Source of the DNA: Streptomyces albireticuli
GTDB lineage: Bacteria; Actinomycetota; Actinomycetes; Streptomycetales; Streptomycetaceae
Direction: 5' to 3'
DNA length: 64,000 nt
Assembly (NCBI RefSeq): GCF_021228125.1
Contig: NZ_JAJQQS010000018.1
Location: 1 to 64,000 of the forward strand
The notes under the pieces were generated by a model. It made no database searches, was not told where the DNA came from, and saw only the letters and a program-made list of their open reading frames with translations. Of this stretch, positions 2,153-55,673 are shown piece after piece. Made by a program: the position numbers and the translations under genes. The stretch's first letter is position 1, and each line of letters starts with the position of its first letter.

Positions 2153-3178
2153 TCATCCAGCCGGGCCGGAGGCATAGAACTGCCGCGCCCAGTTCCGGAA
2201 AGCGCCGATGGGGCCATCGCCGCTGTTGAGTTTGGGGTGGGAGAGATACGCCTTGTGATGGAAGACGAACAGGTCGGTCCCGGTGTCGTGCAGCGTCCAC
2301 CGGTTCATGCCCGCGCTTGAGGCACGCTCGACCGACCGGCGCACCGGGGAGGGAAGCCGGAGCGCGCTGTCGGTGACCACGTTCGCCGCCAGCCAGTAGC
2401 GAATGCGCCCTGGCCCGATGGGTGTCGGCAGCATCCACTGTGCCGCGCGGATCCGGTACCGGGGCACGTCGATGAGGATGACCGCGCCACCGAGCCCGAG
2501 CAGCCGGAAGCCGACCTCCTGGACCGAGGGGAGCAGGGAGGGGAACAGCGGGAGCGTACGGCGGGCGACGAACGTCATGGTGTAGAACGGCCCGTCGCCC
2601 GCGGGTTCCGACACCACCTCGAAGTGCTCGACACCGTGCAGCTCCGTGACGTGCCCGTAGTCGACGAAGTTCTCCATCACGTCCTGCGGGTGCCCCGCCA
2701 GCTCTACCGCGCAGAAGGCGCGCGGCCGGGCCAGGGCGGGCAGTTCCGGCAGTTCCCAGCCGGGAGGGGCGCCGTCGGCGTGGTGCCACACCCAGACGAT
2801 GCCGTACGCCTCCCTCGACGGCAGCACGTCGAGGGACGCCTTCGGCGGCGCCCCGTAGGGCGTACGGGCGCAGGAGCCGTCCACCGCGAAGGCGAACCGG
2901 TGGAACGGGCACACCAGGAGTTCCCCGTCGACCGCGCCTCCGGCGCCCAGATGGGCGCCGAGGTGCGGGCAGTACGGCCGGGTGACCCGCAGGGTGCCGG
3001 AACGGGTGCGGTAGACGAGGACGTCGGCTCCCATGAAGGGCCGGGTACGGACCGCCCCCGGAGCCCACTCCCGCGAGAACCCCACACAGAACCAGCCGGC
3101 CGGATACGGGAACGGCGCCGGGAACGCCTCGTCCGCCGGGCGGGCCTGATGGACGGACTTGTACGTGCGCACTCGCAT
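2153..3178 (-). CDS. Rieske non-heme iron oxygenase, alpha subunit
   Basis: This 341-residue protein is a terminal oxygenase of the Rieske family (KshA-like size). Cys70-x-His72 and Cys90-x2-His93 form the [2Fe-2S] centre. The segment ENFVDYGHVTELHG (about 169-182) supplies the bridging Asp and two His ligands of the catalytic iron. It would need an external ferredoxin and reductase, none of which is nearby. The ATG at 3178 has GGGGGAG just upstream. It lies 119 bases after the terpene synthase on the same strand, so it is probably the tailoring oxygenase of a terpene product. The substrate cannot be read from the sequence. Confidence 0.87.
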   Translation of the reverse strand: MRVRTYKSVHQARPADEAFPAPFPYPAGWFCVGFSREWAPGAVRTRPFMGADVLVYRTRSGTLRVTRPYCPHLGAHLGAGGAVDGELLVCPFHRFAFAVDGSCARTPYGAPPKASLDVLPSREAYGIVWVWHHADGAPPGWELPELPALARPRAFCAVELAGHPQDVMENFVDYGHVTELHGVEHFEVVSEPAGDGPFYTMTFVARRTLPLFPSLLPSVQEVGFRLLGLGGAVILIDVPRYRIRAAQWMLPTPIGPGRIRYWLAANVVTDSALRLPSPVRRSVERASSAGMNRWTLHDTGTDLFVFHHKAYLSHPKLNSGDGPIGAFRNWARQFYASGPAG

Positions 3179-3297
3179 GTCACTCCCCCACTCGGAAAAG
3201 ACCGGGCGCCGGGTCCGCCGGGCCCGGGACGGTCGCCACCGGCAACGTCATGTCGGCTCACGGCACTTCACGGCGTCCCACGACAGCTCGCGGTGGC

Positions 3298-4335
3298 TCA
3301 CGGCGCGAGGAAGCTCGTCGTGCGGCGGTACCGCAGCGTGTCCTCCTGCCAGCGGAAGTAGCCGGAGATCGCCTCCTCCAGCACCCGCACCCCGCGCAGG
3401 ATGTCGTCCTTGGCCATGGAGTGCGGGTCGACGGGGCGGTCCACCAGCCCGCGCAGGCGCTCCGCGACCCGGACGAAGTCCCGTAAGCGCTGCTCCACCA
3501 TGTGCCCAGCCTGCTCGACGGCCTCACCCAGCGTCAGGCCGCGCGCCTCGCGCAGCACCAGGACCAGGTTGTGCGGGTTGCGGTAGTGAAGGTCCTTGCG
3601 GACGGTGTAGGTGTCGTTGGACCACAGCCACACCTCGCTCGCGAAGGCGCGGAGTTCACCGTAGAGCCCGTGCCGCAGGGCGTCGGGGACCTCGGCGCCC
3701 TGGAGGCCCTCCATCATGTCGATGCTGGAGCGCGTCGCGCCGTTCACCCGGCGCAGCCGCAGGTACGAGTCGAGGTCGGGGATCCGCTCCGCGGCCCGGT
3801 TGGCGGTCTCGTCGGCCATGGCCTGCAGGTAGAGCCGGACCGACACCGGGAAGCGCCGCCGCGCGGTCCCGGTCGCGCGGGCGTGGAAGGTTCCCCACAG
3901 GTCGGCGAGGGCGCGGGCGAGCGGGAGCGTCGGCCCCTCCCCCGCCCGGCCGGGAGGTTCGAGGGCCCGGTCGACCTGGGCCACCGCGGTCCGGAAGGCC
4001 ACCGGGTCACGGCCGAGCGGGCCGTCGTCGAAGAGGTCGTCCCACAGGAACAGCCAGATGATCCACTGCGCCATGAGCACCGCGCCGTCGCGGTCGGCCC
4101 GCGGGCAGTACAGGGCGGAGAACATGCCGCATCCCATGTCGGCCAGCCGCTGGGCGGCCGCGGGCGTGCGGTCCAGGCCGAACGCGTGGGCCCAGCGCAG
4201 GGCCTGCGCCTCCGCGTACGCGTGGTAGGGGCCCAGGACCACCGGGAACGGCACGCTGTACCGCGGCACCCGGTACGCGGCCAGCGCGGCCCGGTCGTTC
4301 TCGAACGACTCGGAGAACAGCGGCGGCCTGGACAT
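3298..4335 (-). CDS. Class I terpene synthase
   Basis: This 345-residue enzyme ionises a prenyl diphosphate with bound Mg2+ and cyclises or rearranges the cation. The aspartate-rich motif DDLFDD lies at residues 99-104 after WLFLW. The NSE-type motif NDTYTVRKD is at 240-248, and a C-terminal RY pair is present near LRYRR. The length is that of bacterial sesqui- or diterpene synthases. ATG 4335 has AAGGAG about 6 bases upstream. It sits 79 bases after a Z-prenyltransferase gene and is followed by a Rieske oxygenase, giving a three-gene terpene operon. The product is unknown; it does not carry the signature of geosmin or methylisoborneol synthases. Confidence 0.93.
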   Translation of the reverse strand: MSRPPLFSESFENDRAALAAYRVPRYSVPFPVVLGPYHAYAEAQALRWAHAFGLDRTPAAAQRLADMGCGMFSALYCPRADRDGAVLMAQWIIWLFLWDDLFDDGPLGRDPVAFRTAVAQVDRALEPPGRAGEGPTLPLARALADLWGTFHARATGTARRRFPVSVRLYLQAMADETANRAAERIPDLDSYLRLRRVNGATRSSIDMMEGLQGAEVPDALRHGLYGELRAFASEVWLWSNDTYTVRKDLHYRNPHNLVLVLREARGLTLGEAVEQAGHMVEQRLRDFVRVAERLRGLVDRPVDPHSMAKDDILRGVRVLEEAISGYFRWQEDTLRYRRTTSFLAP

Positions 4336-7302: not shown

Positions 7303-10300
7303 TCATCCCACCCCGGTGCGGCCGTCCGGGGCCGTGATCCGGCCATGAGCGGCGTCCGGTCCGGGGTTTTCCGGCCCGACCTCCGGGGCCGCGGTGCGGG
7401 TCTCCGGCGCCGGTCCGTCGGGGTCGCCCTCCGGGAGGAAGAGGATGAGGGCGAGGGTCGCCATGGCGAGGACCCCGTAGAGCACGGCGAAGGCGGCCCA
7501 GGCGCCGAGGGGGTGCCAGGTGTCCTGGAGGGCGCCCGCCCCGGCGCCGACGAGGAGCGGGGTGAGCACGCTGACCCGCCGGACGCCCACCCCCGCGAGC
7601 AGGGGAAGGGCCACGGCTCCGCCGTAACCGAGCGCGGTGACGAGGAAGACGCCCGCGGTCCCGAGGTCCGCCCGCTGGTGGTCCAGCCATCCGTAGCCCG
7701 CCACGAGCCCCGCGCCGAGGGGGACGAGGAAACCGGGCAGCAGCGCGCGGCGGCCCTTCGGCAGGTGATGGAGACAGATCCCCGTGACGGCCAGCGAGGC
7801 GCCGACGAGGACGGCGAGGTGGGCGGGGAAGGAGAACCAGACCCCGGTGCCGGCCATGACGGCGAACCAGGCGCACACGGCCGACGCGAGCGCCGCGGAC
7901 GGGGCGACGAGGGACAGGACGAGCGGCAGGCACACGAACGGCAGGCAGAACCACATGAACCCGCGTGCCGCGTGGGTGCGCGGGCGCCCGCCCGAGGGCT
8001 GGAGGGCCTCCCAGGCGACGAGGCCGAGCCGCAGGGCGGCGCGGCGGGGCGCGGGCCTGCGGACGAGTTCGCCGACCGGCTGGGCCCCGACGTCGACGAG
8101 GGGGGCCAGCCGCTCGTCGAGCGGCCGGTCGTCGGGCGGCGCGGGGACGTCGGGCTCTTCTCCGAGGGGGCCGTCGCGCCTCTCCTCCTGGAGCCTTTCG
8201 ACCAGGGGGAGTTCCTCGTCGAGGATCTGCCGCTGGATCCGCTCGGTGACGGCGGCGCGCACGGGGTCCCAGGGGCTGCCCGTGGGCGCGGGCTCCACCG
8301 GGGCGGCGAGCAGACCGGCGAGCGCCGGGTCGTCCGGGCCGGTGTAGACCTTCGCCAGCCGCTCGTCCGTCGCGACGACGTCCACCAGCGAGGCGGCGGT
8401 GTCCAGCCGTCCCCAGGTCCAGTCGTTGAGCCGCCAGCGGACGCTCAGGAAGGAGGCGAAGTTGTGCAGTTCGTTGCCGCCGAGCTTGGCGTCGACCAAG
8501 TTCTCCGTGGCGGCGGGGAACGCCTGCCGGGTGGCCCAGCTGGAGTTGGCGGCCGAGACGGTGTGGAAGCGGATGCGGGTGGGTTCGCCCAGCGGGTCGG
8601 GGCGCAGGGGCCCGATGAGCACCTCGGCGGCGAGCAGGGCGTCCAGGACGGCCTCCCGGCCCGCGGCGCCCTGGAGCCCGCCGAAGCCCGGTACGGGCGC
8701 CCGCACATCGGCGCCGATCGCGAGGCCCAGGGCGACGAGGCGCCGCCACACCGGCGCGTAGAGGTCCTCGGGCCAGTCGGCGTCGAGGTCGGCGGTCGCC
8801 GGGTTGGCGACGGCGACCGCGGCGGCCAGCCTGCCCGGCCACTCCTGCCAGGCGGCCACGTCCTCGGGGCCCGGCGTGCCGGCCTCGGCCATGACCGCGC
8901 CGAGCCAGACGGTGGCCTCGCGGATCCGCCGTACGGGCTCGTCGCCGCATTCGCGGAAGCGCCGGAGCACGAGCCGGTCCCGGGCGGCGACCAGGGTGGC
9001 GACGGCCAGCCGGCAGGCGTACAGGCGCTCGCGGGTGGCCGGTGACACGCTCTGCCCGGTCTCCTCCGCCGCCCGGATCCCGTCGAAGAGCAGCCGCACG
9101 GCGCGGGCCAGGGGCAGCGGCGAGACGCCGTGCGTCCGCACCTCCGCGAGCGACCCGGGCGCGGCGGGAAACGCGAGCCCGTCGGCGGCCTCGCGCAGGC
9201 GCTGGAGGCAGCGGGGCGAGGAGCCGCCGTCGAGCGGTCCGGGCCCCGGGGGCAGGGGCAGCGGGTCCGGGCCGGTGACCTCGGCGGGGTCCTCCAGGAG
9301 GCGGGCGAACCGGTCGGCCTCGGCGTGTCCGGTCAGTGAGCGGTACCGGGGCAGCCGGCCGTTCCGGAGCGCCTCCTCCGCCCAGCCGCTGGCGGGCAGG
9401 GCGGACACCGGGGCCCGGCTCTGTTCCGCGGCCGACCGGGCGGCGCGCAGGTCGACGGCGTCCTCCCAGAGCGACTCGGACCCGGTCTTGATGGCCGAGG
9501 CCCGCCGGGCGAGCCGCAGCAGCCGGGTCATCCGGCGCTGCGGTACGGGCCGGGTCACGGCGTCGGGGAGCATCGGGGGCACGGGTTGCAGGTAGAACAG
9601 CCAGCGGTCCACCGGCGCCTTCGCGGGCATGCCGGCGACGGCCCGGACGGCCCAGGCGACGGGGATGTTGTCCAGCAGGCCGCCGTCGACGAGTTCGAGG
9701 CGGCCGTCGGGCGGCTCGCCCTGGCCCGCCTCGCTGCTGACGGAGCTCATGTCGACGACGTCCGGGCCGTTCGGCGGCACGGTGGCCCCGGGGGCGCCGA
9801 CGAAGGGCCGGGCCGGCTCGAAGGCGCCGGGGAACGACGAGCTCGTACGCGCGGCGTAGGCGAGGCGGCGTACGGCCTCCTCCGGGGGCCAGGGGCCGGA
9901 CGGGCTGCCGAAGTCGGTCAGGAACGCGGTGCCGGGCCGGTGCCGGAAGCGGAAGAAGGCACGGGCGCGCCCCACTTCCAGCGGCTGGCCGAGGGTGGGG
10001 CGCACCCAGTCCTGGCGGGGCCTGACCCGGGTGGCGGTGAGGATCAGGCGTACGGGGCCGCCGCCGGGCCGGTCCGGGGGCTGCTTGCGGATCTCCGCGA
10101 GGAGGCTGTCGGCGAGCCGCCCGTAGAAGACCTCGTCGCCGCGGAGCAGGGAGTCCGGGACGGACGCCGGGCCCGGCGTCCGCAGGAAGGACAGCGGGCC
10201 CAGGCCGGGACGGCGGGTGAGGGACTCCAGATCGCCCAGGCGCAGCCACAGGCGCCGCATGTTGTCGCCGAACTCCATCCCGTAGGCCAGATGGCAGGCG

Positions 10301-17331: not shown

Positions 17332-18555
17332 TCAGAGGCCGGGTCCGGCGGGTGCGGGGCGGGGTTCCGGCGTCTCGCGGACCGCGGGAGGCACGGCGGC
17401 CCCGGCGCGGTCGGCGCGCTGGAGACGGCCGGCCCAGAAGACGGCCGCGCACCCGGCCGCGCCGAGCGCGGCGCCGACCCAGGCCACGGACGCGAAGCCG
17501 AACCCGGCGTCGATGGCCAGTCCGCCCAGCATCGGCGCCAGGGTGTTGCCGACGTTGAACGCCGAGGTGTTGGTCGCGCCGGCCAGCGTGGGGGCGTCCG
17601 GGGCGAGGGGGAACACCCGGGCCTGGAGGGTGGGGTTGGTGACGTAGCCGGCCAGGCCGAGCAGGAAGACCAGCGGGATCGTGACGGCCAGGTGCCGTGC
17701 CGTCAGCGCGAGCAGTGCCGAGGCGATCACGAGCGCGCCCAGTCCCCAGGCGAGCGTGGCCAGCGGGTGTCCGGCGGCGGTGCGGCCGCCGATCACCAGG
17801 CCGAGGAGGCCGCCGACGCCGAACAGCGCCAGCACGGCGGGCACCCAGCGCTCCGGCAGACCGCTCACGTCGGTGAGCACCGGGGCCAGATAGCTGAAGG
17901 TGACGATGACCGCCCCGAAGGTGAACGCGGTGACGGCGTACGAGAGCCACAGCTGCGGCCGTGCCATGCCGCGCAGTTCGGCCCTGACCGACCGGGGCCG
18001 CTCGTCGGCGCCCGCGGCGGGCACGGCCACCAGGGTGCTCAGCAGGCTGACGACGGTCGCCGCCGCGACGGCCCAGAACGCCGCGCGCCAGCCGGAGAAC
18101 TGGCTGAGGACGGTGCCGGCCGGCACCCCGACGATGGTGGCGAGCGTGAGCCCCCCGCCGACCACGGCCACGGCCTTGCTCCTGGCCTCCGCGGGCACCA
18201 GCGCCACGGCCGTGGTCACGGCCACGCCCCAGAACCCGGCGTAGGCCAGGGCGCTCACGACCCGGGTGGCGAACAGCACTCCGTAACCCGGCGCGAGCGC
18301 GCCGACGACGTGCGCGGCGACGAAGACCCCTTGCAGGGCGACCAGGGCCGTCCGGCGCGGCCAGTTCAGGGTGGCGACCGTCAGCAGGGGGGCGCCGACG
18401 ACCATGCCGACGGCGAAGGCGGAGATCAGCAGCCCGGCGTCGGGGATGGAGACGCCCAGGTCGTCGGCGAGGGTGGGCAGCAGCCCGGACAGCATGAACT
18501 CCGAGGTGCCTTGGGTGAAGATTCCGAAGCCGAGTATGTAGACGGCCAGGGGCAT
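17332..18555 (-). CDS. Cmx/CmrA-type MFS drug efflux transporter
   Basis: This 407-residue, 12-segment membrane protein of the DHA1 group begins MPLAVYILGFGIFTQGTSEF and continues MLSGLLPTLADDLGVSIPDA. It resembles the chloramphenicol exporters CmlR/Cmx of Streptomyces and Rhodococcus. It would export hydrophobic drugs by proton antiport. Motif A-like WPRRTALVAL and motif C-like GVPAGTVLSQFSGWRAAFW are visible. ATG 18555 has GGAGG 8 bases upstream. It is followed by a TetR gene and preceded by a TetR-type inverted repeat. The true substrate cannot be decided from sequence. Confidence 0.93.
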   Translation of the reverse strand: MPLAVYILGFGIFTQGTSEFMLSGLLPTLADDLGVSIPDAGLLISAFAVGMVVGAPLLTVATLNWPRRTALVALQGVFVAAHVVGALAPGYGVLFATRVVSALAYAGFWGVAVTTAVALVPAEARSKAVAVVGGGLTLATIVGVPAGTVLSQFSGWRAAFWAVAAATVVSLLSTLVAVPAAGADERPRSVRAELRGMARPQLWLSYAVTAFTFGAVIVTFSYLAPVLTDVSGLPERWVPAVLALFGVGGLLGLVIGGRTAAGHPLATLAWGLGALVIASALLALTARHLAVTIPLVFLLGLAGYVTNPTLQARVFPLAPDAPTLAGATNTSAFNVGNTLAPMLGGLAIDAGFGFASVAWVGAALGAAGCAAVFWAGRLQRADRAGAAVPPAVRETPEPRPAPAGPGL

Positions 18556-18664
18556 GAACGCGTCCTCCGTTGCGGTACGGGGCGGCGGCCGGACGGGCAG
18601 ATTTTGAATCATCCGCTTCAGAACCGGACCGCGACACCCCTTGCGTGAGGTCGAACGCTAACAC

Positions 18665-20804: not shown

Positions 20805-20933
20805 ATGGAGATCACCCAGTCCCCGGCCTACACCGCGCCGGTCGTCCTGGACGCCGGAGCTGTCGTGGAGGTGACGCTCGGCAACCAGAACTTCGACACC
20901 GTCGACGACACCCAGTACAAGCAGGGCACCTGA
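20805..20933 (+). CDS. Lasso peptide precursor (A)
   Basis: This 42-residue precursor is too short for routine gene calls. ATG 20805 has a strong AAGGAGGA 5 bases upstream. The leader (1-25) has the RRE-binding pattern Y9-x2-P12-x-V14-x3-G18 and ends VTL, with Thr at position -2 as in most lasso precursors. The predicted core is GNQNFDTVDDTQYKQGT. Gly1 would form an isopeptide with Asp9, giving a nine-residue ring and an eight-residue tail; there are no cysteines, so class II. Asp6-Thr7-Val8-Asp9 resembles the DTAD ring motif that I recall from aspartimide lasso peptides such as cellulonodin-2 and lihuanodin. The methyltransferase at 23647 supports this. Confidence 0.9.
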   Translation: MEITQSPAYTAPVVLDAGAVVEVTLGNQNFDTVDDTQYKQGT

Positions 20934-20941
20934 TCCACCTG

Positions 20942-20979
20942 CCGGGGCCGGGCGCGGTATTCGCCGCGCCCGGCCCCGG
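20942..20979 (+). terminator. Stem-loop between precursor and cyclase
   Basis: A perfect 16-base stem (20942-20957 with 20964-20979) and a six-base loop lie 9 bases after the precursor stop. No U-tract follows. It may be a partial terminator or RNA stabiliser that keeps precursor mRNA in excess over the enzymes. Confidence 0.75.
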
Positions 20980-21031
20980 GCCTTTGCAGGTCATGTCCGG
21001 TCTTGAGGACGAGGGAGTCAGGAGGCTCACG

Positions 21032-22860
21032 ATGCGGTGGTGCACGGGATGGGAGAGCGGCCCGGCCGGTCGGCAGCCCCGAGCAGGGCGTCCGGTGACC
21101 GCGCTGGGCGAGACGTGGACGGTCGGCTGGCCCGAGGACCAGGTCCGCACGGCCGGGGCGGGGGCGGTGGCGCTGGCCGTGATCGGGGTGTGCGGGGCCG
21201 GCGACCGGCAACTGGAGGAAGCCTTGCCTGTCGTGCGGGCGCAGCGGTGGCAAGCGCTGACACGGTGGCCCGGCTCTTACCTGGTGGTGGCCCGCAGCGG
21301 CCCGACGCTGGCGGTGATCGGCGATCTGTCGGCGCAGCACCCGGTCTACTTCCGGCGGGAGGCGGCCGGGACCTGGTGGGCGACCTCTGCCACCGCCCTC
21401 GCCGCGCTGGACGGGGCACCGGCCGATCCCATCGCGCTCGCGGCGCACCTGGCGTTCGGTCAGCCCGACGTCCTGGCCTCCCGTAGCCTGTTCCGCAGCG
21501 TGAACAGGGTACCCACCGGGCACCTGCTCCAGATCACCCCCGAGGGTGCCCGGACCGTCCGCTACGAACCCGCCGAGTACGAGCCGGTGAGCCTGCGCGA
21601 CGCGGCGCCGACGGTGCGGGCGGCCCTGGCCGAGGCGATCGCGGTCCGTATGGACGGCCGCCCGGTGAGCGCGGACCTCGCGGGCCTGGACTCCACCACG
21701 TTGGCCTGCCTGGCGGCCCGGCACCGGCCGGTGACAGCGGTGACGTTCGCCGATGAGCGGCTGCGGGACGACGATCTGGCCTATGCGCAGCGGACGGCCG
21801 CCGTGGTGCCCCGGCTGCGTCACTACAAGGTGCCCGGCGCGCAGGAGACGGTCTACTACGCGGGACTGGACGACGTGTCTGCCCTCCCGTTCACCGACAC
21901 ACCGAACGCGTTCGCGGTCTCGGCGGCGGTCAAGCGAACTGTCCTGGACACCGTGATCGCCCATCAGACGGCGCCCGGCGTGCACCTGACGGGCGTCGCC
22001 GGAGACGGGCTGCTGTCCGCCTCCCCGTCGTACCTGGCTGATCTGCTGCGTGAACGGCAGCACCCGCGAGCCTTGCACCACGCCCAAGGCCACGCGCGAC
22101 TGCGGCAGACCTCCGTGTGGTCGGTGCTGGGCCGGGCCCGGCCTGCGGCCCGTACCGGGCTGGCGGACGGCTGGCGCCAGGCCGCCGCCGAATTGCGTGA
22201 GGCGCCGAGGCAGTGGGTGCCCCAAGCACGCCGTCCGATCGCGTGGACGCCGCTGCTGGCCACGGCCGACTATCAGCCCCGGCGTGCGTCACCGGCTCGC
22301 CGACGCCCTCGCTGCGGCGGCCGACGAACTGACGAAGCCGCCTGAGCGGCTGGCGGCGTGGACGGACAGCCAGGACCTCGCCCGTATCGGAGCGGACACC
22401 AGCGGCTGGCGCACCCTCGCCCTCGACGAGCACGGCATCGAGATCGCCGCCCCGTACCTGGACAACGAAGTCCGAAGGGCCTGCCTGGCCGTGCCGGCTG
22501 ACCAGCGCGGGACGCCAGGACGGTACAAGCCGTTGCTGGCCGAAGCCTTCGCGGGCACCGACGTGCTGCCTGACTTCGTCCTCGATCGGGCCACGAAGGG
22601 CGGCTTCAACGCGCTCTCCTACGCCGGGCTCGTCCAGCACGCCCCCGCCCTCCGCCGCCTGCTCGGCCCGTCCTCGCGCCTGGGCGCCATGGGCCTGGTG
22701 GCCGACGGGCCGGTGGGGGGCGATGCTCGCTCGTGCGGCAGTCGGCCGGACCACCGCCCAAGGTGCCTTGCATGTGGCGGTCGTGACCGAAGTGTGGCTG
22801 CGGCAGCTCGAACATGCCGGGGCCCGGTGGGAGGTGACCGGTTGTGTGGCAGCTGCGTGA
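21032..22860 (+). pseudogene. Lasso cyclase (asparagine-synthetase-like, C), frame broken twice
   Basis: The product resembles the ATP-dependent enzyme that adenylates the ring Asp and closes the lasso. ATG 21032 has AGGAGG 6 bases upstream. The N-terminal glutaminase-like domain is followed by the AMP-forming domain. The frame shifts at the C run 22277-22280 and again at the G run 22715-22720. Removing one base at each restores one protein of about 608 residues with YLDNEVRRACL, KPLLAEAF and TKGGFNALSY in order and the end WLRQLEHAGARWEVTGCV. The PP-loop at 21674-21694 reads DLAGLDS, one residue shorter than the usual SGGxDS form. The stop overlaps the next start by 17 bases. Either the sequence has homopolymer errors or the gene is decaying. 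Confidence 0.85.
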
Positions 22861-23134
22861 AGGCTCCCACCCTGTCCTCACGGACGAAGGCGGAGCCATC
22901 CTGAACGAGCGGACCGGCCGCTGGGTCTACCTCACGCCGACCGCCGCCGCAGCGGTGCTGCTCCTCACCGCCAGCGGCAGCGAAGACCGGGCCGCCGAGC
23001 AGTACGGCACCCGCTACGGTCTGAGCCCCGAGCGGGCCCTCGCCGATGTCCGCGCCGTCGCCGCCGCCCTCACCACGCGGGGCATCGCGGGGGAACCCGT
23101 ATCCCGGACCCGCTGGTGGGGGTGGTGGCGGTGA
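22844..23134 (+). CDS. Lasso RRE protein (B1/E, PqqD-like)
   Basis: This 96-residue protein is the leader-binding RiPP recognition element that delivers the precursor to the protease and cyclase. It shows the PqqD-like pattern HPVLTDEGGAILNERTGRWV, YLTPTAAAAVLLLTASGS and a C-terminal helix. GTG 22844 lies inside the last codons of the cyclase, so translation is probably coupled. Its stop overlaps the start of B2 as GTGA. The strong conservation of this protein suggests the cluster is, or was recently, functional. Confidence 0.9.
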   Translation: MWQLREGSHPVLTDEGGAILNERTGRWVYLTPTAAAAVLLLTASGSEDRAAEQYGTRYGLSPERALADVRAVAAALTTRGIAGEPVSRTRWWGWWR

Positions 23135-23553
23135 CCACCATGGAGTCGTACGCCACCATCCGCACCGGCCCCTTCCGTGACCGCCTGGCGGCAGCCACGG
23201 GCCTCGCCCTGGCTCTGGTGCTCCTGGCGGTGCCCTTCCGCTACACCGTCCGCGCTGTCCGCCTCGCCCACCGTGCCGGCCGCCGGGCGATAGCACCCGA
23301 CAGAGCGGAGGCCCTCGTCGCCGCCGTCCGGCACACCGGCCGGCTCTGGCCGGTCCGGGCGGCGTGCGCGGAAATCTCGCTCGGGACGGTCCTGGCCGCA
23401 GCCCTCCTCGGCCGACGCCTGGACTGGTGCCTGGGGGTGCGGTTCTCCCCGCCACCCACCGAATACCACGCGTGGACAGCGATTCCCGGCGGCGGACCGG
23501 TTGGCGAATACACCGAGGCCGGATGGCACCACTACGCCGCTCTCGTCATCTGA
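23131..23553 (+). CDS. Lasso leader peptidase (B2, transglutaminase-like)
   Basis: This 140-residue cysteine protease would cut the leader just before core Gly1. The nucleophile is the Cys in RAACAEISLG and the catalytic His is in TEYHAWTAI; a Gly-rich PGGGPVGEY segment follows, as in other B2 proteins. The N-terminal hydrophobic stretch GLALALVLLAVPF is also typical. GTG 23131 overlaps the RRE stop by four bases. The length is normal for actinobacterial B2, so this enzyme appears intact. Confidence 0.9.
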   Translation: MTTMESYATIRTGPFRDRLAAATGLALALVLLAVPFRYTVRAVRLAHRAGRRAIAPDRAEALVAAVRHTGRLWPVRAACAEISLGTVLAAALLGRRLDWCLGVRFSPPPTEYHAWTAIPGGGPVGEYTEAGWHHYAALVI

Positions 23554-23554
23554 G

Positions 23555-23582
23555 CGCGTCAACTCGGCGCCCCGTTGACGCG
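23555..23582 (+). terminator. Stem-loop between B2 and the methyltransferase
   Basis: Perfect nine-base arms (CGCGTCAAC at 23555-23563, GTTGACGCG at 23574-23582) enclose a ten-base loop just after the B2 stop. There is no U-tract. It may separate expression of the methyltransferase from the core operon, or serve as an operator dyad. Confidence 0.6.
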
Positions 23583-23646
23583 TGTCCCTCACTCACTCGG
23601 AGCAGTTGAGGAACGCGTCCTGACCCTTCCACGAAGGAGTGAACTA

Positions 23647-24666
23647 ATGACCCCCGTCGCTGCCGCCGCTGAGAGAGTCCCCGAGCAGCACTACACCCAC
23701 CACAAGGCCAGGGGCGCGACCATCCACCGCACGAACCCGGTCTTCATCCACCGGGAGCTGGAAGCACTCGACGTCCACATGGGCATGAACGTCGCCGAGG
23801 TCGGCACCGGCTCAGGCCTCTCCGGGGGCCTGCTCGCCGAACTCGTCGGGCCGACCGGCATGGTCACCAGCCTCGACATCGACCCGTACCTCACGCGGTG
23901 GGCCAACCACATCCACGCCGAGCGCGGAGTGAGCAACATCCGCTGCTACGCCGTGGACGGCACCGCCGGCTATCCCGGCCGGGCGCCCTACGACCGCATG
24001 GTGGGCTGGTGCACGCCTCCGCTGCTGCCGAAGGCGTGGGTGAACCAGGTCAAGGACGGCGGACTGATCGTGGCCACGCTGCCGATCACGGCCGTGCCGA
24101 ACCTGGCGATCGGTGCCGTGATCCGCATCAGCGACGGGCAGCCGAGCGTCGAATCGATCTTCCCCGGCTCCTACATCGAGACCGGCTCCTCTCCCCGCAG
24201 CGACTTCTCGGTCCCGGCACGGTGGGTCGACTGGGAGAGCCGCGTCCCGGCCACCTCGTGGGTGTCGATCGCCTGGCGCGAGCAGGACGACTGGCAGAAC
24301 TCCGGGGCACGTGGGGTCCTCGACCGCCTGCGGGAGCCCGGTCACACCGAGCGGTACAAGGGCGAGGAGATCGACTGGTCCAGCCTGCGCGTGTGGCTGG
24401 CCACCACCGGCTCTCGGCTGACGATGACCGAGCTGAAGGCCGACGTCATCGGCCTCGGGCACTCGACCCGCGACACCGCGGCCGTGATCCAGCAGGACGG
24501 CACCATCACCGCCGACGCGGCGGACTCGACGTCGCTGACCTTTCTGCGGGGCCGGCTCACCGCATGGGAGGACGCCGGCCGCCCCGCCCCCGACACCTAC
24601 ACCGCGAGCCTGACCCTCGATACGGAAGGCGACGTCTCCGGCTGGGACCTCCGACTGGCACGGTAG
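23647..24666 (+). CDS. Protein-L-isoaspartate O-methyltransferase homologue, lasso-tailoring
   Basis: This 339-residue SAM enzyme has the PIMT N-terminal pattern (VFIHRELEALDVHMGMNVAE) and motif I AEVGTGSGLSGG at residues 50-61, then DGTAGYPGRAPYDRMV. Housekeeping PIMT is near 210 residues. The extra C-terminal 130 residues are a feature of RiPP-associated PIMTs, which methylate a backbone-adjacent Asp so that it collapses to an aspartimide. The predicted target is core Asp6, followed by Thr7. ATG 23647 has AAGGAG 7 bases upstream. It is 93 bases after B2 in the same direction. No exporter or isopeptidase gene follows. Confidence 0.9.
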   Translation: MTPVAAAAERVPEQHYTHHKARGATIHRTNPVFIHRELEALDVHMGMNVAEVGTGSGLSGGLLAELVGPTGMVTSLDIDPYLTRWANHIHAERGVSNIRCYAVDGTAGYPGRAPYDRMVGWCTPPLLPKAWVNQVKDGGLIVATLPITAVPNLAIGAVIRISDGQPSVESIFPGSYIETGSSPRSDFSVPARWVDWESRVPATSWVSIAWREQDDWQNSGARGVLDRLREPGHTERYKGEEIDWSSLRVWLATTGSRLTMTELKADVIGLGHSTRDTAAVIQQDGTITADAADSTSLTFLRGRLTAWEDAGRPAPDTYTASLTLDTEGDVSGWDLRLAR

Positions 24667-27440: not shown

Positions 27441-28190
27441 TCAGCCCTGCGGCTTCAGCGCGACCTCCGGGCTGGACTCCGCCGGGAGGCGGTGGGCGGG
27501 GCAGGTGTCGAGGACCTTCCGCATGGCGGCGCCCTCTTCGGCGGTGACCCAGAGCTTGTACTCCTTCTTCACCGCGATCTGGCGCGCCACATAGGGGCAC
27601 GCGTACGCCTTGTTCGGGGGCAGCCAGGCGGCGGCGTCCTTGTCGCCTTTGGCCCGGTTGGCCGGGCCGTCGGCCGCGATCAGATTGAGGGGATCGTTGG
27701 CCAGGGCCTCACGCTTTCCCTGGGTGAGCTGCTGCGCCCCGGTCCGCCACGCGGCCGAGAGGGCCACGGCGTGGTCGATGTCCACCGGGGAGGACCGGTT
27801 CCCGCGCTGGAAGGAGATCGTCCGGCCGGTGTACGGGTCGGCCAGGGTGCCCGAGGCGATCACGCACTTCTTCCCGCCGTCGAACACGGGGTCCTTCAGA
27901 TCGCGGCGCAGGATGTCGTTCCTGGTGTCGCACTTGTTGCCCGAGCCGGGCGCGTCCGTCTTGTCGGACCAGGCCGGGCCGAACGACTTGGCCCGGTCGT
28001 AGCCCTCCTTCGACGCGGCGGCCTTCACGGGCAGTTCCGCCAGCGCCGCCCGGGCGGTGCCCGGTTTCGCGTCGCTGCCGGAGCGGTGTTTCTCGTCCTC
28101 TTCGCTGGAGCAACCGGCCAGGGCCGCCAGCAGCAGGAGGGAGAGTACGGAGAGAGCGGAACAGGTGTGGGTACGGGCACGAGGGCGCAA
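27441..28190 (-). CDS. HNH-family nuclease-like lipoprotein (DUF1524)
   Basis: This protein of about 249 residues has a lipoprotein signal (ALSVLSLLLLAALAGCSS) with the lipobox Cys, so it is exported and anchored. The mature domain has the DUF1524/HNH pattern: SSPVDIDHAVALSAAW with the DH pair, and DPLNLIAADGPANRAKGDKD with the Asn and Lys residues. Such secreted nucleases are common in Streptomyces and may degrade extracellular DNA. No ATG or GTG fits the signal; the TTG at 28190, preceded by GGAG and GGGG, is the best start. Start is uncertain, function is well supported. Confidence 0.83.
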   Translation of the reverse strand: MRPRARTHTCSALSVLSLLLLAALAGCSSEEDEKHRSGSDAKPGTARAALAELPVKAAASKEGYDRAKSFGPAWSDKTDAPGSGNKCDTRNDILRRDLKDPVFDGGKKCVIASGTLADPYTGRTISFQRGNRSSPVDIDHAVALSAAWRTGAQQLTQGKREALANDPLNLIAADGPANRAKGDKDAAAWLPPNKAYACPYVARQIAVKKEYKLWVTAEEGAAMRKVLDTCPAHRLPAESSPEVALKPQG

Positions 28191-28420
28191 CGGAACCCCA
28201 TCTCCTCGGCGTGGGTCCGTCCGGTCGCCGACGCGGAATCGCGGCGGAACCGCTGCGGGCCCGCGGGAAAACTCCGTTCCGGGAAAGCTGTGCCCGGGGC
28301 CCGTAGCGGAACCACCGGCTTCCCGCCGCGCCTCGACGCATACGGGGATCCCGCCCCTCGGGGCCCGCGCACCGGCGTACGCGCGAGGGGAAAGGGGGCG
28401 TCCGCCGGACACGGACGACG

Positions 28421-28452
28421 CGCGGCCACCACCCGTGAGGACGGTGGCCGCG
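28421..28452 (-). terminator. Terminator of the M6-type protease gene
   Basis: Ten-base arms (28421-28430 and 28443-28452) form a GC-rich hairpin about 30 bases after the protease stop on the minus strand. Confidence 0.6.
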
Positions 28453-28482
28453 GTCCGTAGGGGAGATCGGGAGGCCGCCGGT

Positions 28483-30498
28483 CTACCTCTTCAGGGAGCA
28501 GGTGGCCCTGGCGGTCTTGCTCGGGTCGCTCTCGGAGCGCGCGGTGAGCACGACCTTGCCGTCCCGGTCGGCGCCCGCCTTGGCGTTCACCGCGACCTCG
28601 ACGGGCACGGAGGAGCCGGCCTCGGTGGTGGCGAGCCGGTTGGGGAGCCAGGCGGACCAGCCGCGTCCGGCGGCCGTGGCCGACAGCCGGTACACGTCGG
28701 AGGACAGGTGCGGACCGGTGTCGCCGGCACGGCCGGTGTTGGCGAGGGCGAAGGTGCACACGGCCCGTCCGTCGGTGGGCCGGCCCTGAGCCTTGCCCTG
28801 GCCGAGGGCGAGCCCGCGGGTCTGCGGTCCCGCGCCGTCCAGGGACTTCACGCCGACGCTGTAGGACAGCACCCCGGCGGCGTCGCGCCGCATGTCGAGG
28901 ACGTAGAAGTGCAGCCGGTTGGCCTGGTCGACGTACTCGTACGAGCTGCCGGAGTCGGCGCCCGCGTGCAGGAGCGCGTCGCTGAGCTGCCGGTAGTCCC
29001 CCATGGTGATCTTCTGGGGGGTGCCGTCGGGGCGCAGGAAGTCCACCATGCCGATGTCTTCGGGGTGCGCGTCGATCACCCAGGCGAAGGGGGCGCGGTC
29101 CGCGTTCTTGGTCTTGCTGAGCAGGACCCCGTTGTCGGGTGTGAAGGAGTCCATGCCCATGCGGTCGACGACCTCGACGGTGTAGTTGTCGTAACCCCCG
29201 CCGTCGCAGAGGGGGTCGGTGGCGCGGTCGCAGGCGGGCGACAGGTCGCGGCCCATGGTGATGTTGACGCCGGTGAGGCCCTTGTCTCCGGGCGGCGCGG
29301 AGCGCGCGGTGACGCGGGCGACGACGAGGCCGGAGCCCTTGAGGGCGTCGCGGTCGAGGCGCAGGACGTTCTTCTCGTCGACGATGCCGAGTTTGAGCTT
29401 GTCCCGGAGGACGTGCTGGGCGCCCATGGAGCCGCCGGCGGTGGCGGGGACCTGCCAGCGCGTGTGCGGTCCGCCGGGGCCGTTGAACGAGCCCCGGGAG
29501 AGCATGCCCCAGATGCCCGTGTAGGCGCGGCTCAGCGGAGTGCCGTAGGGGTTGTTGTAGTTGTCCCCGATGCCCAGGATGTGGCTGAGTTCATGGGCGA
29601 AGGTGGCCATGCCGGAGCTCTCGGCCTGGGTGGACGAGCCGCCCGCGGCGTTGGGCCAGATGCGGGCGGCGGCCTGCCAGGACGTCCACGGCACGTAGCG
29701 GGTCTTCGCGGCGTTGCCCCCGCCGGGGATCGCGGAGGGCGGGCCCCAGGCGGCGGGCACGTCCTGCGGGGACGCGAACTTCATCGGGCCGAACTCCTGC
29801 CAGGCGGAGGACTCGTCGACGCCCGCGGTGAGGTAGAAGACGAAGTCGAACTCCGCGGCCTTGTCGGCGCCCACGTCGGCGACCCAGTTGCGCTTGCCGT
29901 CGGTGCGGATGTCCTTGCCGCAGGAGTCGCCGACCGGGCAGGCGCCGGGGTTCATGCCGGGCTCGATGCCGTACTGGTAGGACTTCCACGGCATGCGGTA
30001 GACGCCGAAGGCGGTCAGGTTCACGCCGACGCGGCCTCCGGAGTCCTCCATCCAGTATTCGTTGATGGTGTGACCGTGGTTGAGGGCGCCGGGCTTGTTG
30101 AGGAAGTCCTCGTAGAACTTCGGGACCCGCGCGCGGGGGATGCCGGACGCGCTGGGCAGCGGGTTCCCGAATCGGGCGGCGCCGGGCGGCTTGCTGACCG
30201 AGAACTCCTCGTCGGGGTAGTCCAGGAGCACCAGGGCGCCCTTGAAGGTGCGCTTCGTGGGCTTGAGATCGGGGTCGGCCCAGTTCGTCCCCGGGACCGA
30301 GCGGTACTCGGCCCAGGTCATGTCGTCGGGGTTGCGCCAGTTCTGCGGATCGATCGGCTGGACGAGGGGCGGTCGGACCCGGGGGGCGTCGGGCGTCGCC
30401 CGCGCGGGTCCGGCGGCGACGACGGCCATGACGCCGAGGAGCAGGGCGACGATACTCGACCGCCGTAATCGGCGTGCGCGTCTGGGGCGCGGGAACAC
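28483..30498 (-). CDS. Secreted M6-type zinc metalloprotease
   Basis: This 671-residue protein has a signal peptide (SSIVALLLGVMAVVAAGPARA). Its protease domain has the zinc motif HELSHILGIGDNYNNPYG, where HExxH plus a downstream Asp is the metzincin-like/M6 pattern. The C-terminal 200 residues look like beta-rich accessory domains ending with a paired Cys (ATCSLKR). It would cut extracellular proteins. GTG 30498 has AAGAGGTGA 5 bases upstream. It is monocistronic, with its own terminator, and its substrate is unknown. Confidence 0.88.
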   Translation of the reverse strand: MFPRPRRARRLRRSSIVALLLGVMAVVAAGPARATPDAPRVRPPLVQPIDPQNWRNPDDMTWAEYRSVPGTNWADPDLKPTKRTFKGALVLLDYPDEEFSVSKPPGAARFGNPLPSASGIPRARVPKFYEDFLNKPGALNHGHTINEYWMEDSGGRVGVNLTAFGVYRMPWKSYQYGIEPGMNPGACPVGDSCGKDIRTDGKRNWVADVGADKAAEFDFVFYLTAGVDESSAWQEFGPMKFASPQDVPAAWGPPSAIPGGGNAAKTRYVPWTSWQAAARIWPNAAGGSSTQAESSGMATFAHELSHILGIGDNYNNPYGTPLSRAYTGIWGMLSRGSFNGPGGPHTRWQVPATAGGSMGAQHVLRDKLKLGIVDEKNVLRLDRDALKGSGLVVARVTARSAPPGDKGLTGVNITMGRDLSPACDRATDPLCDGGGYDNYTVEVVDRMGMDSFTPDNGVLLSKTKNADRAPFAWVIDAHPEDIGMVDFLRPDGTPQKITMGDYRQLSDALLHAGADSGSSYEYVDQANRLHFYVLDMRRDAAGVLSYSVGVKSLDGAGPQTRGLALGQGKAQGRPTDGRAVCTFALANTGRAGDTGPHLSSDVYRLSATAAGRGWSAWLPNRLATTEAGSSVPVEVAVNAKAGADRDGKVVLTARSESDPSKTARATCSLKR

Positions 30499-38199: not shown

Positions 38200-38392
38200 C
38201 CCGCCAGTGTGCGTCGCCTCCCGAGCGGGGAGACCGGAACTTTCGGGCAGAGAACCATTTTCCGGCCAGTTCTCACCGGCTTCTCCGTAACCCCAGGAGA
38301 GGGACATTACGGGGTCTAGCATGGGTGAACGGACATGCTCAAGGACGTTCCGGCGAGTCGGCCCATGGGGTCCGGCGGTACGGGAGGGACCG

Positions 38393-39755
38393 ATGGGAGC
38401 ACACGGGCCGACGGTTCTGGACAATGCGCTCAGCCGTTATTACGACCGCGTCCAGACGGCGCTCCACCGGGTGGCGGAGAGCCGTCGCGCCGACGGCCGG
38501 GAGGACTTCTCCCCCGGCCCTCTCCTGCCTCCCCCGACCGACCGGTTGCGTGACTACCTGTCCGTATCCGGCCTGGCGGCGGCCGGGGCGGGAGAGCACC
38601 ACGGCGTGCGGCTCACCCTGCTGGACCTGATGCGCAACCCCGGGACGAGAACGACCAAGACCATGGCCTCGCTGGTCATCGTGGCACGCGCCGCGCACCA
38701 TGTGCGCGAGACCGGGGAGCCCCTGATGCTCCTCACCCCCTCCTCCGCGAACAAGGCCACCGCGCTGCGCGACGCCGTCCTGCGCGCCGTCGACCACGGC
38801 CTGGTCCGCCGCGGGGGGGCTGCGCGTCGCCTGTGTGGTCCCCGAGGAGTCCGCCCACAAGGTGTGGCGGTCCCGGCTCTCCGACGACCCGGAGCTGCGC
38901 CGCCGCAATCCGGTGCTGGTGCACGCCGGCCCCGGCGCGGCCGTCAAGGCCCTGGCGAGCGAGGCCGCCGGGGACGTCGCGGCCCGCGTCCGGCACCTGA
39001 CCGGCGTCCGCGTCTGGCACACCCTCGACCTCGACAACTACCGCGCCGCGGACACCGTGAGGGCCTACTTCGAGGACGAGTACCTGCCGCCGCCGGACGG
39101 CGTCCGCTGGCACTCCCACGCGGTGTCCAGCGCGTTCGGCCTCCTCGGCCACCACTTGGGCACCAGGCTCCTCGCCGAGGAGAAGGCGGGCTCCGGCGCC
39201 GCCCGTCCGGCGACCGGGTACCTCCTTGTCCAGCACCTCGCCACCCCCGACATGGTGCTCGACCTGCACGGGGACGGCGGGTTCCCCAAGTACGGCGAGG
39301 ACCCCGGGAGCGGGCTCTTCACCCAGGACGGAAACCCCCGCTTCCCTTCCGTCACGGACGACCCGGCGGAGGCCATCGACCCCACCTTCTACACGAAGTC
39401 GCCCGCCACGGCCCCCGCGATGAGCGGGATCGTCCGGGCCCGGGGCGGCGGGGGCATGGTCGTCTCACGGCACGAGTGCGTCGCGCTGTACGAGCGGGTC
39501 CGCGCCCTGGTGGCGCCCTCCGGGGTACACCTGCCGGCCGACCCGGCGCGGCTGCGCGAGTGGTCGCTGGTCATGGCGGTGACGGGCACGCTGCTCGCCG
39601 TCGAGCGCGGCCTGGTCGAGGCCGACGAGGTCGTCGTGCACTGCTCCGGCTCCTACACGGCCGACGACTTCACGCCGCTGCCGCCCGCCGCGCTGCGGAC
39701 CGTGGGCGGCGTCGCCGACGTCGCCGACGCGCTCCACACCGCGGCGGCGGCCTAG
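38393..39755 (+). pseudogene. PLP fold-type-II-like enzyme, frame broken once
   Basis: ATG 38393 has GGGAGGG about 5 bases upstream. The frame shifts in the seven-G run 38813-38819; removing one G gives one protein of about 453 residues that runs smoothly across it (RRGGLRVACVVPEESAHKV). The motif NPGTRTTKTMASLV resembles the PLP-lysine site of threonine-synthase-like enzymes, and LLTPSSANKATALR resembles the phosphate/carboxylate-binding SSGNKG loop. SGSYTADD is near the end. I think it belongs to an uncharacterised Streptomyces family (possibly DUF6002). It heads a five-gene operon. It is classed as broken, but a homopolymer error is likely. Confidence 0.75.
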
Positions 39756-53789: not shown

Positions 53790-54695
53790 TCAGCCGAAGA
53801 AGACCGAGGAGACGGTGTTGTCGAAGCCGAGGGCGGCGAGGTCGGCGACGTCGCCGCTGACGACCTTGGACCGGCCGGTGCAGTCGCGCTCGGACCAGAT
53901 CTTGAGGCTGCCCCGGGCCTGGAGGGACGACGCGACGTCGTCGCGCGCGACGTTCCGGCAGCCCTTGCCCGCCAGGCCCTGGGACGGGTCGCCGAAGGCC
54001 CGCTCGTCGAAGAGGACGACGCTGGTGGCGGCCCCCGCCTGGGCACCCGTGCCCGCGGCCCCGGATCCGGACGCGGCCCCCTTACCGGCCTTCTTGCCGT
54101 CGGGGGTGACACCGAACCACGTGCCCCCGACGCCCTGCCCCTTGGTGTCGCCCGGCTTGGTGTCCTTGGCGAAGCGGTAGACCGGCCAGCCGCCGATCGT
54201 GACCTGGCGGGTGCCGTCGGCCCGCTTGACTACGCCGACCTTCGACCTGTCGACCCCGTCGAGGAAGATCTTGCCGCCGGGCGCGACGACGACCGGCGGC
54301 CAGGTGACCGCGCACGCGCCGTCGCACGTGGACTTCGACGGGCTCGCCGTGTCCTTGTCGAAACGGTAGAGGGTGAAGCCCGCGCCGTTGACGACCACCG
54401 GGTCGAGCGCCCCGGCCCTGGACGCGGTGAGCTGCGTCCACCGGGTCGCCTCCGGCTTGACCGCGGGCTTCCCCGGGTCGTTCGCCCAGTCGCCGGTCAT
54501 GGCCGGGGCGTTGTTCTTCTTCGCGGTGCCGCTGAGGAAGTTCAGGTCCTGTCCGGTGGCGTTCGCCCGGTCCTGGGCGGCGGTCGCGCCGGCCGGCGCC
54601 GAGGATTCCTTGTCGTCACCGCCGCCGCACGCGGTGAGCAGCAGGGCTCCGAGGGCGGCCGACGTCACGAGCGCTGCGGTGTGCTTGCGGAACAT
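53790..54695 (-). CDS. SCO0930-family secreted lipoprotein
   Basis: This 301-residue lipoprotein has the lipobox LLLTACGGGD. The mature region contains two copies of the secreted repeat found in Lipoprotein_15 proteins: VVNGAGFTLYRFDKDTASPSKSTC and VTIGGWPVYRFAKDTKPGDT. The first also has CAVTWPPVV. A C-terminal part (SLKIWSERDCTGRSKVVSGD) looks like a beta/gamma-crystallin or inhibitor-type fold. Similar proteins are in most Streptomyces; function is unknown. ATG 54695 has GGGGGG about 7 bases upstream. Confidence 0.9.
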   Translation of the reverse strand: MFRKHTAALVTSAALGALLLTACGGGDDKESSAPAGATAAQDRANATGQDLNFLSGTAKKNNAPAMTGDWANDPGKPAVKPEATRWTQLTASRAGALDPVVVNGAGFTLYRFDKDTASPSKSTCDGACAVTWPPVVVAPGGKIFLDGVDRSKVGVVKRADGTRQVTIGGWPVYRFAKDTKPGDTKGQGVGGTWFGVTPDGKKAGKGAASGSGAAGTGAQAGAATSVVLFDERAFGDPSQGLAGKGCRNVARDDVASSLQARGSLKIWSERDCTGRSKVVSGDVADLAALGFDNTVSSVFFG

Positions 54696-54920
54696 GAGAG
54701 ATCCCCCCAGTCGTGGCCCCGGACCGGACCGGTGCCGTCGTCCCCCTGTACGGAGCCGGCTCCGCGACCGCCTCAGCCGGTTACCGTCCCGATACACGAC
54801 GCGGACGATGTCACCGAGCCCGCGTCCCCTGACGTCTCCCCCGCCTCCTCCCGTCTCGCGTGTCCCGGTGGATACGGGCCCCCGGCTCGTGCCGTGCCCG
54901 ACGCCCGCCGAAGAGAAGGT

Positions 54921-55673
54921 ATGAACCGCATGCAAGGCACGCTGCACCGGGCCTCCGACCGTCTCTTCCCCGGTGGCACCAACCAGTACGGCGCGCTGCC
55001 GGCCGTATTCGTCCTGCTGACGGTCGTCACGGGCATCGTGGACGCCGTCAGCTTCCTCGGTCTGGGTCACGTCTTCGTCGCCAACATGACGGGGAACGTC
55101 GTCTTCCTGGGGTTCGCCCTGGCCGGAGCGGCGAACCTGTCCGCCGGGTCGTCCCTGGTGGCCGTCGGAAGCTTCATGGCCGGGGCCTGGGCGACGGGCC
55201 GTCTGGGCCGGCGCCTCGGGGACCCCGGGCGGCTGTTCACCACCGTCACCACCGCCCACGCCGTGTTCACCGCGGCCGCCCTGGCCGTGGCCCTCGCCGC
55301 GGGCCACCGGCCGTACGGCGTCCGGACGGTGCTCACCGCCCTCCTGGCCGTCGGCATGGGCATGCAGAACGCCGTCGTCCGCCGGCTGGCCGTCCCCGAC
55401 TTCACCACGACGGTCCTCACCAGGGCGGTCACCGGTCTCACCGCCGACCCGCCGGGCCCCGCCACCACGCGTCGGCTCGTGGCCGTCGCCGCGATGTTCA
55501 CCGGCGCGCTGTGCGGAGCCCTCCTCCAGCTCGGCCCGGGGCCCGGGGCGGCGCTGGTGCCGGTCGTGGTTCTGCTGGTGTGCCTGGCGTTCGCCACCGC
55601 TCCCGGTCCGTCCGGCGGCCGAGGGCCGGGGCCGGGGCCGGGGCGAAGCCCCGTTGGGGAAGGGACGGGGTGA
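54921..55673 (+). CDS. YoaK/DUF1275 membrane protein
   Basis: This 250-residue protein has six predicted membrane segments. TGIVDAVSFLGLGHVFVANMTGN and GMGMQNAVVRRLAVPDFTTTVLTRAVTGL are the DUF1275 signatures. The function is not established; transport is assumed from the topology. ATG 54921 has AAGAGAAGG close upstream; ATG 54930 is possible. It is divergent from the lipoprotein gene. The stop codon lies inside the first unit of a tandem repeat. Confidence 0.9.
   Translation: MNRMQGTLHRASDRLFPGGTNQYGALPAVFVLLTVVTGIVDAVSFLGLGHVFVANMTGNVVFLGFALAGAANLSAGSSLVAVGSFMAGAWATGRLGRRLGDPGRLFTTVTTAHAVFTAAALAVALAAGHRPYGVRTVLTALLAVGMGMQNAVVRRLAVPDFTTTVLTRAVTGLTADPPGPATTRRLVAVAAMFTGALCGALLQLGPGPGAALVPVVVLLVCLAFATAPGPSGGRGPGPGPGRSPVGEGTG

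Follow-up and report, generated by a model that had tools for sequence, protein, structure and literature searches.

The lasso peptide cluster considered here lies in a 64,000-nucleotide stretch of Streptomyces albireticuli DNA (contig NZ_JAJQQS010000018.1, positions 1 to 64,000; hereafter the window). Two questions are raised by this locus, namely whether it belongs to the lasso peptides that carry an aspartimide, and whether the strain as sequenced could make such a peptide. The original prediction had read it as a lasso cluster with a PIMT homologue expected to act on Asp6 and with Asp9 as the ring acceptor, and this class assignment is supported by the compared precursors, the set of genes present and the PIMT tree. 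Judged from its sequence, the cluster probably belongs to the group 1 'lassimiditides' (cellulonodin-2/lihuanodin type), in a Val8 branch, with a pathway that would be expected to run in the sister species and to be blocked in the window strain as assembled.

Locus collection and precursor analysis

The PIMT gene was used as the entry point for the collection of loci. A match was present in 16 of 392 genomes drawn from the genus (E <= 1e-60) and in 4 of 394 genomes drawn from the class (E <= 1e-50), with the window genome counted in both. The locus set comprised 25 loci with a PIMT of the window clade (the window, L009-L012, L032-L045 and L073-L078). Two duplicate pairs (L031 of L010, and L079 of L039) were each counted once, and L013 was left out as a 75-residue partial PIMT match. 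The nearest of the collected PIMT loci were L009 (S. lilacinus), L010 (S. eurocidicus) and L011 (S. hiroshimensis), here called the sister species; their PIMTs are 92-94% identical to that of the window. Outside the sister species the identity was 56-71%, and 48% for the second PIMT of L039. A precursor was present in 18/25 loci, and 15/25 had a precursor, a single-frame cyclase, B1, B2 and PIMT all together.

The predicted 42-residue precursor with a canonical lasso leader was borne out by a match to the lasso leader model NF033521 (21.1 bits, curated cut-off 19). The core, GNQNFDTVDDTQYKQGT, begins with Gly1 and carries Asp6-Thr7, Val8 and Asp9, the ring acceptor and in-ring residues being at the positions originally proposed. 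Asp9 provides the acidic residue at position 7-9 by which lasso peptides were recognised, and the core contains the combination of Asp6, Thr or Ser at position 7 and acceptor Asp9 that characterises group 1. Across the six frames of the window there is a single instance of a lasso leader with G-x4-D-[TS]-x-D after it. The same 17-residue core is present in the three sister species, and in L010 and L011 it is accompanied by a single-frame cyclase, an RRE protein, B2 and a PIMT. Asp6 and Asp9 were kept in all 18 precursors, with the ring positions 6-9 reading DTAD in ten, DTVD in four, DSAD in two, DTDD in one and DHAD in one; position 8 was thus Val or Asp in 5/18. The description of DTVD as a Val8 variant was correct, and four species-level genomes have it. 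The conserved Asp6 and Asp9, together with the placement of the PIMT in the lasso clade described below, mark the window cluster as a cellulonodin-2/lihuanodin-type cluster with Val8.

Three precursors deserve separate mention. The L032 precursor (4008-4133) has the DTDD ring motif, and its PIMT is the next nearest after those of the sister species and L012. L074, a plasmid of Streptomyces sp. WZ-12, encodes at 3090-3212 the core GTNNFDHADDTEYKNA, with His7 in place of the reported Thr or Ser; its cyclase and PIMT each matched in a single frame. L095, from another family of the class and with a PIMT of ~31% identity, has the core GAADDDTADMNTAKYY, with DTAD exactly at positions 6-9; the cyclase matches at 7432-9124 of this locus lie in two different frames.

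The 129-base precursor gene differs from those of the sister species at 1-2 positions (127-129/129 identical among the four species), and the intergenic stretch upstream differs at 10-16/187 positions. Even silent changes are almost missing in the precursor DNA across the four species, and the flanks diverge by several per cent. A strong hairpin in the gap between precursor and cyclase had a z score of -2.68, with 3/200 shuffles of the 201-nt stretch folding equally well. In each of the three sister species one of its base pairs has both partners altered, and the S. eurocidicus and S. hiroshimensis copies have additional weakening changes. It is a possible attenuator or mRNA stabiliser.

Remaining biosynthetic proteins and the PIMT homologue

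The RRE protein and the B2 protease were both confirmed. The RRE/PqqD protein (B1) scored 29.9 bits against the Pfam PqqD cut-off of 23.4, and 46.6 bits against the NCBIfam lasso PqqD cut-off of 70, which it did not reach. The B2 protein scored 51.6 bits (NF033537, cut-off 33). The RRE (B1) and B2 peptidase pair expected of a lasso cluster is therefore present.

The PIMT homologue matched PF01135 with 73.3 bits (cut-off 20.3). The match spans residues 29-163 of 339, leaving ~175 more C-terminal residues, in agreement with the long C-terminal extension noted originally. The models of repair PIMTs were all below their cut-offs (TIGR00080 67.6/159, PRK00312 72.2/188, PRK13942 80.7/282). A tree was built from 22 rows of the window clade, three distant rows and the seven further PIMT homologues of the window genome that could be placed, out of 17 PF01135 matches there. 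One side of a branch with a support of 95/98 consisted of the 22 lasso PIMT rows, and the 25 window-clade and distant rows were separated from the seven own-genome homologues at 100/100. A grouping with housekeeping enzymes, which the original prediction had named as grounds against itself, was thus checked and did not appear, the window PIMT lying in the lasso PIMT clade. An adjacent PIMT of this clade with a C-terminal extension, as is typical of group 1, is present in the window.

It is very improbable that the PIMT is an unrelated repair enzyme that lies beside a lasso cluster by chance. Its residues 29-163 are homologous to repair PIMTs, and L038 and L076 have orphan PIMT copies without lasso genes, both in keeping with such a role, but the gene adjoins the cluster in 18/18 precursor loci (themselves collected through PIMT), its clade is distinct from the seven genomic paralogues, and every repair model scores far under its cut-off. 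A housekeeping PIMT was rejected on these model scores and on the tree.

The motif WXXXGXP, reported for lasso PIMTs (PMC13001092), is present in the C-terminal domain of the window PIMT as W307EDAGRP313 and in 20/22 lasso PIMT rows, the exceptions being L010 and the second PIMT of L039. An AlphaFold model of the window PIMT (mean pLDDT 32, from an alignment of 5 rows) was too poor to judge the fold, and the profile match to 1DL5 (TmPIMT) covered the N-terminal domain only. L039, also recorded as L079 (pSTRVI01), carries two lasso-type PIMTs, one by a whole cluster (DSAD) and the other by a B2 remnant.

Several observations weigh against the assignment to a pathway of the cellulonodin-2/lihuanodin type that is blocked in this strain. 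The Ala8 of the reported group 1 motif, D(T/S)AD (PMC13001092), is replaced by Val8 in the window core; we took this motif as the consensus of the group and not as its definition. All 18 precursors are predictions from gene sequence. In the tree, the long branches of the three distant and the seven own-genome rows meet. WXXXGXP is also carried by 6/7 of the other own-genome PIMT homologues and so gives no evidence of a lasso role; by sequence, the motif is not lasso-specific. Lastly, the two breaks in an otherwise constrained cyclase gene could be sequencing errors, the gene at 38369-39722 likewise having an extra base in a G-run.

The cyclase gene

The genes for the precursor, RRE protein, B2 and PIMT are intact and in order, but the cyclase, which had been listed with them, is spread over three frames and is not one gene. 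The first frame runs from 21032 to ~22271 (out-of-frame stop at 22343-22345), the second over ~22272-22721, and the third over ~22717-22857 with a stop at 22858-22860. On the 561-position NCBIfam model, the first frame covers positions 14-394 and the second 385-523, with the C-terminus in the third. Relative to the three sister species, two bases are missing from the window near 22271, and the run near 22715-22721 has six Gs instead of five. The intact cyclase expected of a lasso cluster is therefore absent from the window, whereas the gene is one open frame in L010 and L011; the L009 gene is interrupted by a run of N (assembly gap). A programmed frameshift was rejected, as the cyclase genes of L010 and L011 are each a single uninterrupted frame. 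The implied ability of the cluster as sequenced to make the peptide was not upheld, because of the broken cyclase frame.

Comparison with the three sister species gave ratios of nonsynonymous to synonymous substitution (dN/dS) of 0.15-0.18 and 0.12-0.15 for the first and second cyclase segments, and 0.13-0.17 for the last. Since constraint is not relaxed on either side of the breaks, the break would be either a very recent loss or a sequencing error, and the window strain may or may not make the peptide.

The frames of the surrounding genes were compared with the genome G303, in which a 67-kb stretch is mostly collinear with the window. Of 47 G303 reference genes, 27 were full length in the window, 8 partial, 8 unmatched and 4 multi-frame. 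The multi-frame genes taken as real were the cyclase and the gene at 38369-39722, which carries one base more than G303 in a G-run near 38813. The multi-frame gene at 27447-28759 was attributed to a false reference frame, judged from the translations, and the fourth, at 53793-55036, was assigned to neither the real nor the false breaks. In a 204-kb comparison, 3/149 reference genes were multi-frame on the window genome (84 without a match above 75%), and 0/144 in the reverse direction (82 without a match).

It is quite possible that both cyclase breaks are sequencing or assembly errors, in which case the cyclase would be whole and the window strain would make the peptide. The unrelaxed constraint is consistent with this, as is the finding that one cyclase break and the break at 38369-39722 are each an extra G in a run of 6-7 Gs, in a cluster whose precursor, B1, B2 and PIMT genes are all intact. 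However, the other cyclase break is a two-base loss outside a long run, and two of the three clear frame breaks of the window sit in one gene. Plain decay is also seen elsewhere (7/25 loci without a precursor, and the L033 cyclase in two frames), and the 8.56 Mb assembly (108 contigs) is rated 100% complete with 0.01% contamination.

Proposed pathway and end product

By analogy with the known pathway, B1 would bind the leader, B2 would cleave it after Leu25, and the cyclase would link Gly1 to the side chain of Asp9 around the threaded tail. The PIMT would then methylate Asp6, and the Thr7 amide would close the aspartimide. The characterised enzymes TceM and LihM are described as methylating Asp6 on the threaded lasso only, with the Thr7 amide then closing the aspartimide (PMC13001092, PMC9266682), and an Asp6 aspartimide should likewise form after lassoing here. 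In the sister species the whole pathway should run, and an aspartimide lasso would be the best expected product since the core keeps Asp6, Thr7 and Asp9. The calculated monoisotopic neutral masses are 1929.834 for the linear core, 1911.824 for the lasso after loss of one water, and 1893.813 for the lasso with an aspartimide. The window cyclase, as assembled, is without the final third of its synthetase domain; the pathway would then stop before lasso closure, and a PIMT that, like TceM and LihM, accepts only a threaded lasso would have no substrate in this strain.

Alternatively, the PIMT may act but leave Asp, isoAsp or a methyl ester as the final product, with the aspartimide as an intermediate only. 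This is compatible with the reports that lanthipeptides and some graspetides end as isoAsp and that the aspartimides of two known lasso peptides hydrolyse in buffer (PMC13001092), and with the position of Val8 beside the ring closure. Yet the core retains Thr7, a residue reported to steer hydrolysis to Asp and to permit re-closing (PMC13001092), and the aspartimide is the form isolated in both characterised members. We therefore consider this outcome unlikely, and the aspartimide lasso is kept as the expected product.

Comparison with known lasso peptides

Cellulonodin-2 of Thermobifida cellulosilytica (TceM) shares with the window cluster a precursor, cyclase, B1, B2 and PIMT homologue, as well as the Asp6 site, Thr7 and acceptor Asp9 (PMC13001092). 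It differs in having Ala8 instead of Val8, and the window cyclase is broken. Lihuanodin of Lihuaxuella thermophila (LihM) follows the same logic and motif positions, with Thr7 steering hydrolysis to Asp (PMC13001092), but it comes from the Bacillota and has Ala8. Both likenesses were drawn from the gene content and motif positions as reported. Closer at hand, the Streptomyces DTAD clusters (such as L040, L042, plasmid L073 and L077) have the gene order and leader of the window and share the segment after the ring, D-D-T-[QE]-Y-K or D-E-T-Q-Y-K; unlike the window, they have a core ending in KNA, the DTAD ring motif and a single-frame cyclase. Group 2 lasso precursors are also associated with a PIMT, but have the Asp in the loop (PMC10787088), whereas the conserved Asp of the window lies in the ring, which places the cluster in group 1.

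The kind itself is known, with two characterised members and 58 mined others (PMC13001092), and 67 clusters in another mining study (PMC10787088). In the original prediction the core was not known from any described peptide. Five fragments of the core were not found in the open full-text literature, a search that did not cover the supplementary lists of the mining studies; as three other public genomes encode the identical core, it may already be listed there. A DNA pattern for D-[T/S]-A-D-D-T matched 77/396 genomes of the phylum, mostly by chance, and was not used.

The natural ring variants (Val8, Asp8 and the plasmid-borne His7) occur in close relatives with single-frame enzymes and permit a direct test of positions 7 and 8 in aspartimide formation and in the reported control of hydrolysis by Thr7. 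A regulator family is now tied to these clusters, which are seen to move on plasmids and to decay. Two corrections are also made: the cyclase of the window strain is broken as sequenced, and WXXXGXP is no marker of lasso PIMTs.

The divergent regulator

An NsdA-family regulator gene absent from the original prediction is divergent from the precursor, 190 bases apart. Its product matched NF053720 with 376.8 bits (cut-off 75; scanned with one extra upstream codon), and a Pfam scan of the window copy gave no match. A similar divergent gene is found at the same place in 16/18 precursor loci (identity 25-95%), the NsdA model having been checked on five copies, that of the window included; the L042 copy is itself split over two frames. 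No divergent NsdA-like gene was found in the other two precursor loci, L033 and L043; by eye, L033 has an unrelated-looking helix-turn-helix gene at the regulator's place and L043 one more distant. None was found in the seven precursor-less loci, of which L038 has an unscored similar-looking upstream gene. As the host genome has only 19 NsdA-family genes over the cut-off (31 match rows), the divergent arrangement would not be due to chance. A structure model of the regulator (mean pLDDT 46, from an alignment of 4 rows) was too poor to search with.

The NsdA family name derives from a repressor. On a doubtful, speculative reading, this TPR regulator would sense the lasso peptide as a signal; if true, the aspartimide ring, electrophilic and slow to revert, would serve to tune development or antibiotic production and not to kill rivals.

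Mobility and decay

Clusters of this type sit on plasmids and often decay. Five plasmid records (L073, L074, L075, L077 and L079) carry a precursor with enzymes, and two (L076 and L078) a PIMT only, split in L078. The loci without a precursor were L012, L038, L041, L044, L045, L076 and L078; the L033 cyclase is split over two frames. Upstream of 4478 in L012, the cyclase is truncated beside a transposase-like gene (identified by eye) and the precursor is lost.

Features of the cluster and its surroundings

Table 1. Features of the lasso peptide cluster (window coordinates)
Feature	Position	Strand	Basis
NsdA-family TPR-like regulator, 457 aa	19244..20614, stop codon 19241-19243	-	NF053720
Lasso precursor, 42 aa, leader MEITQSPAYTAPVVLDAGAVVEVTL, core GNQNFDTVDDTQYKQGT	20805..20933, core codons 20880-20930	+	NF033521
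Hairpin, 17 bp, precursor-cyclase gap	20942..20979	+	Folding vs shuffles
Lasso cyclase, Asn-synthetase-like, broken over three frames	21032..22860	+	Frames, alignment to sister species
RRE/PqqD-like leader-binding protein B1, GTG start	22844..23134	+	Pfam PqqD
B2 leader peptidase, transglutaminase-like	23116..23553	+	NF033537
PIMT homologue, 339 aa, methyltransferase core residues 29-163	23647..24666	+	PF01135

The cluster is adjoined by a gene for a Cmx/CmrA-family chloramphenicol-efflux transporter at 17332-18612 (NF033135, 493 bits, cut-off 400). Two further lasso B2 genes were identified in the same genome (C24:113210-115697 and C64:200477-200836), one of them beside a cyclase-like gene.

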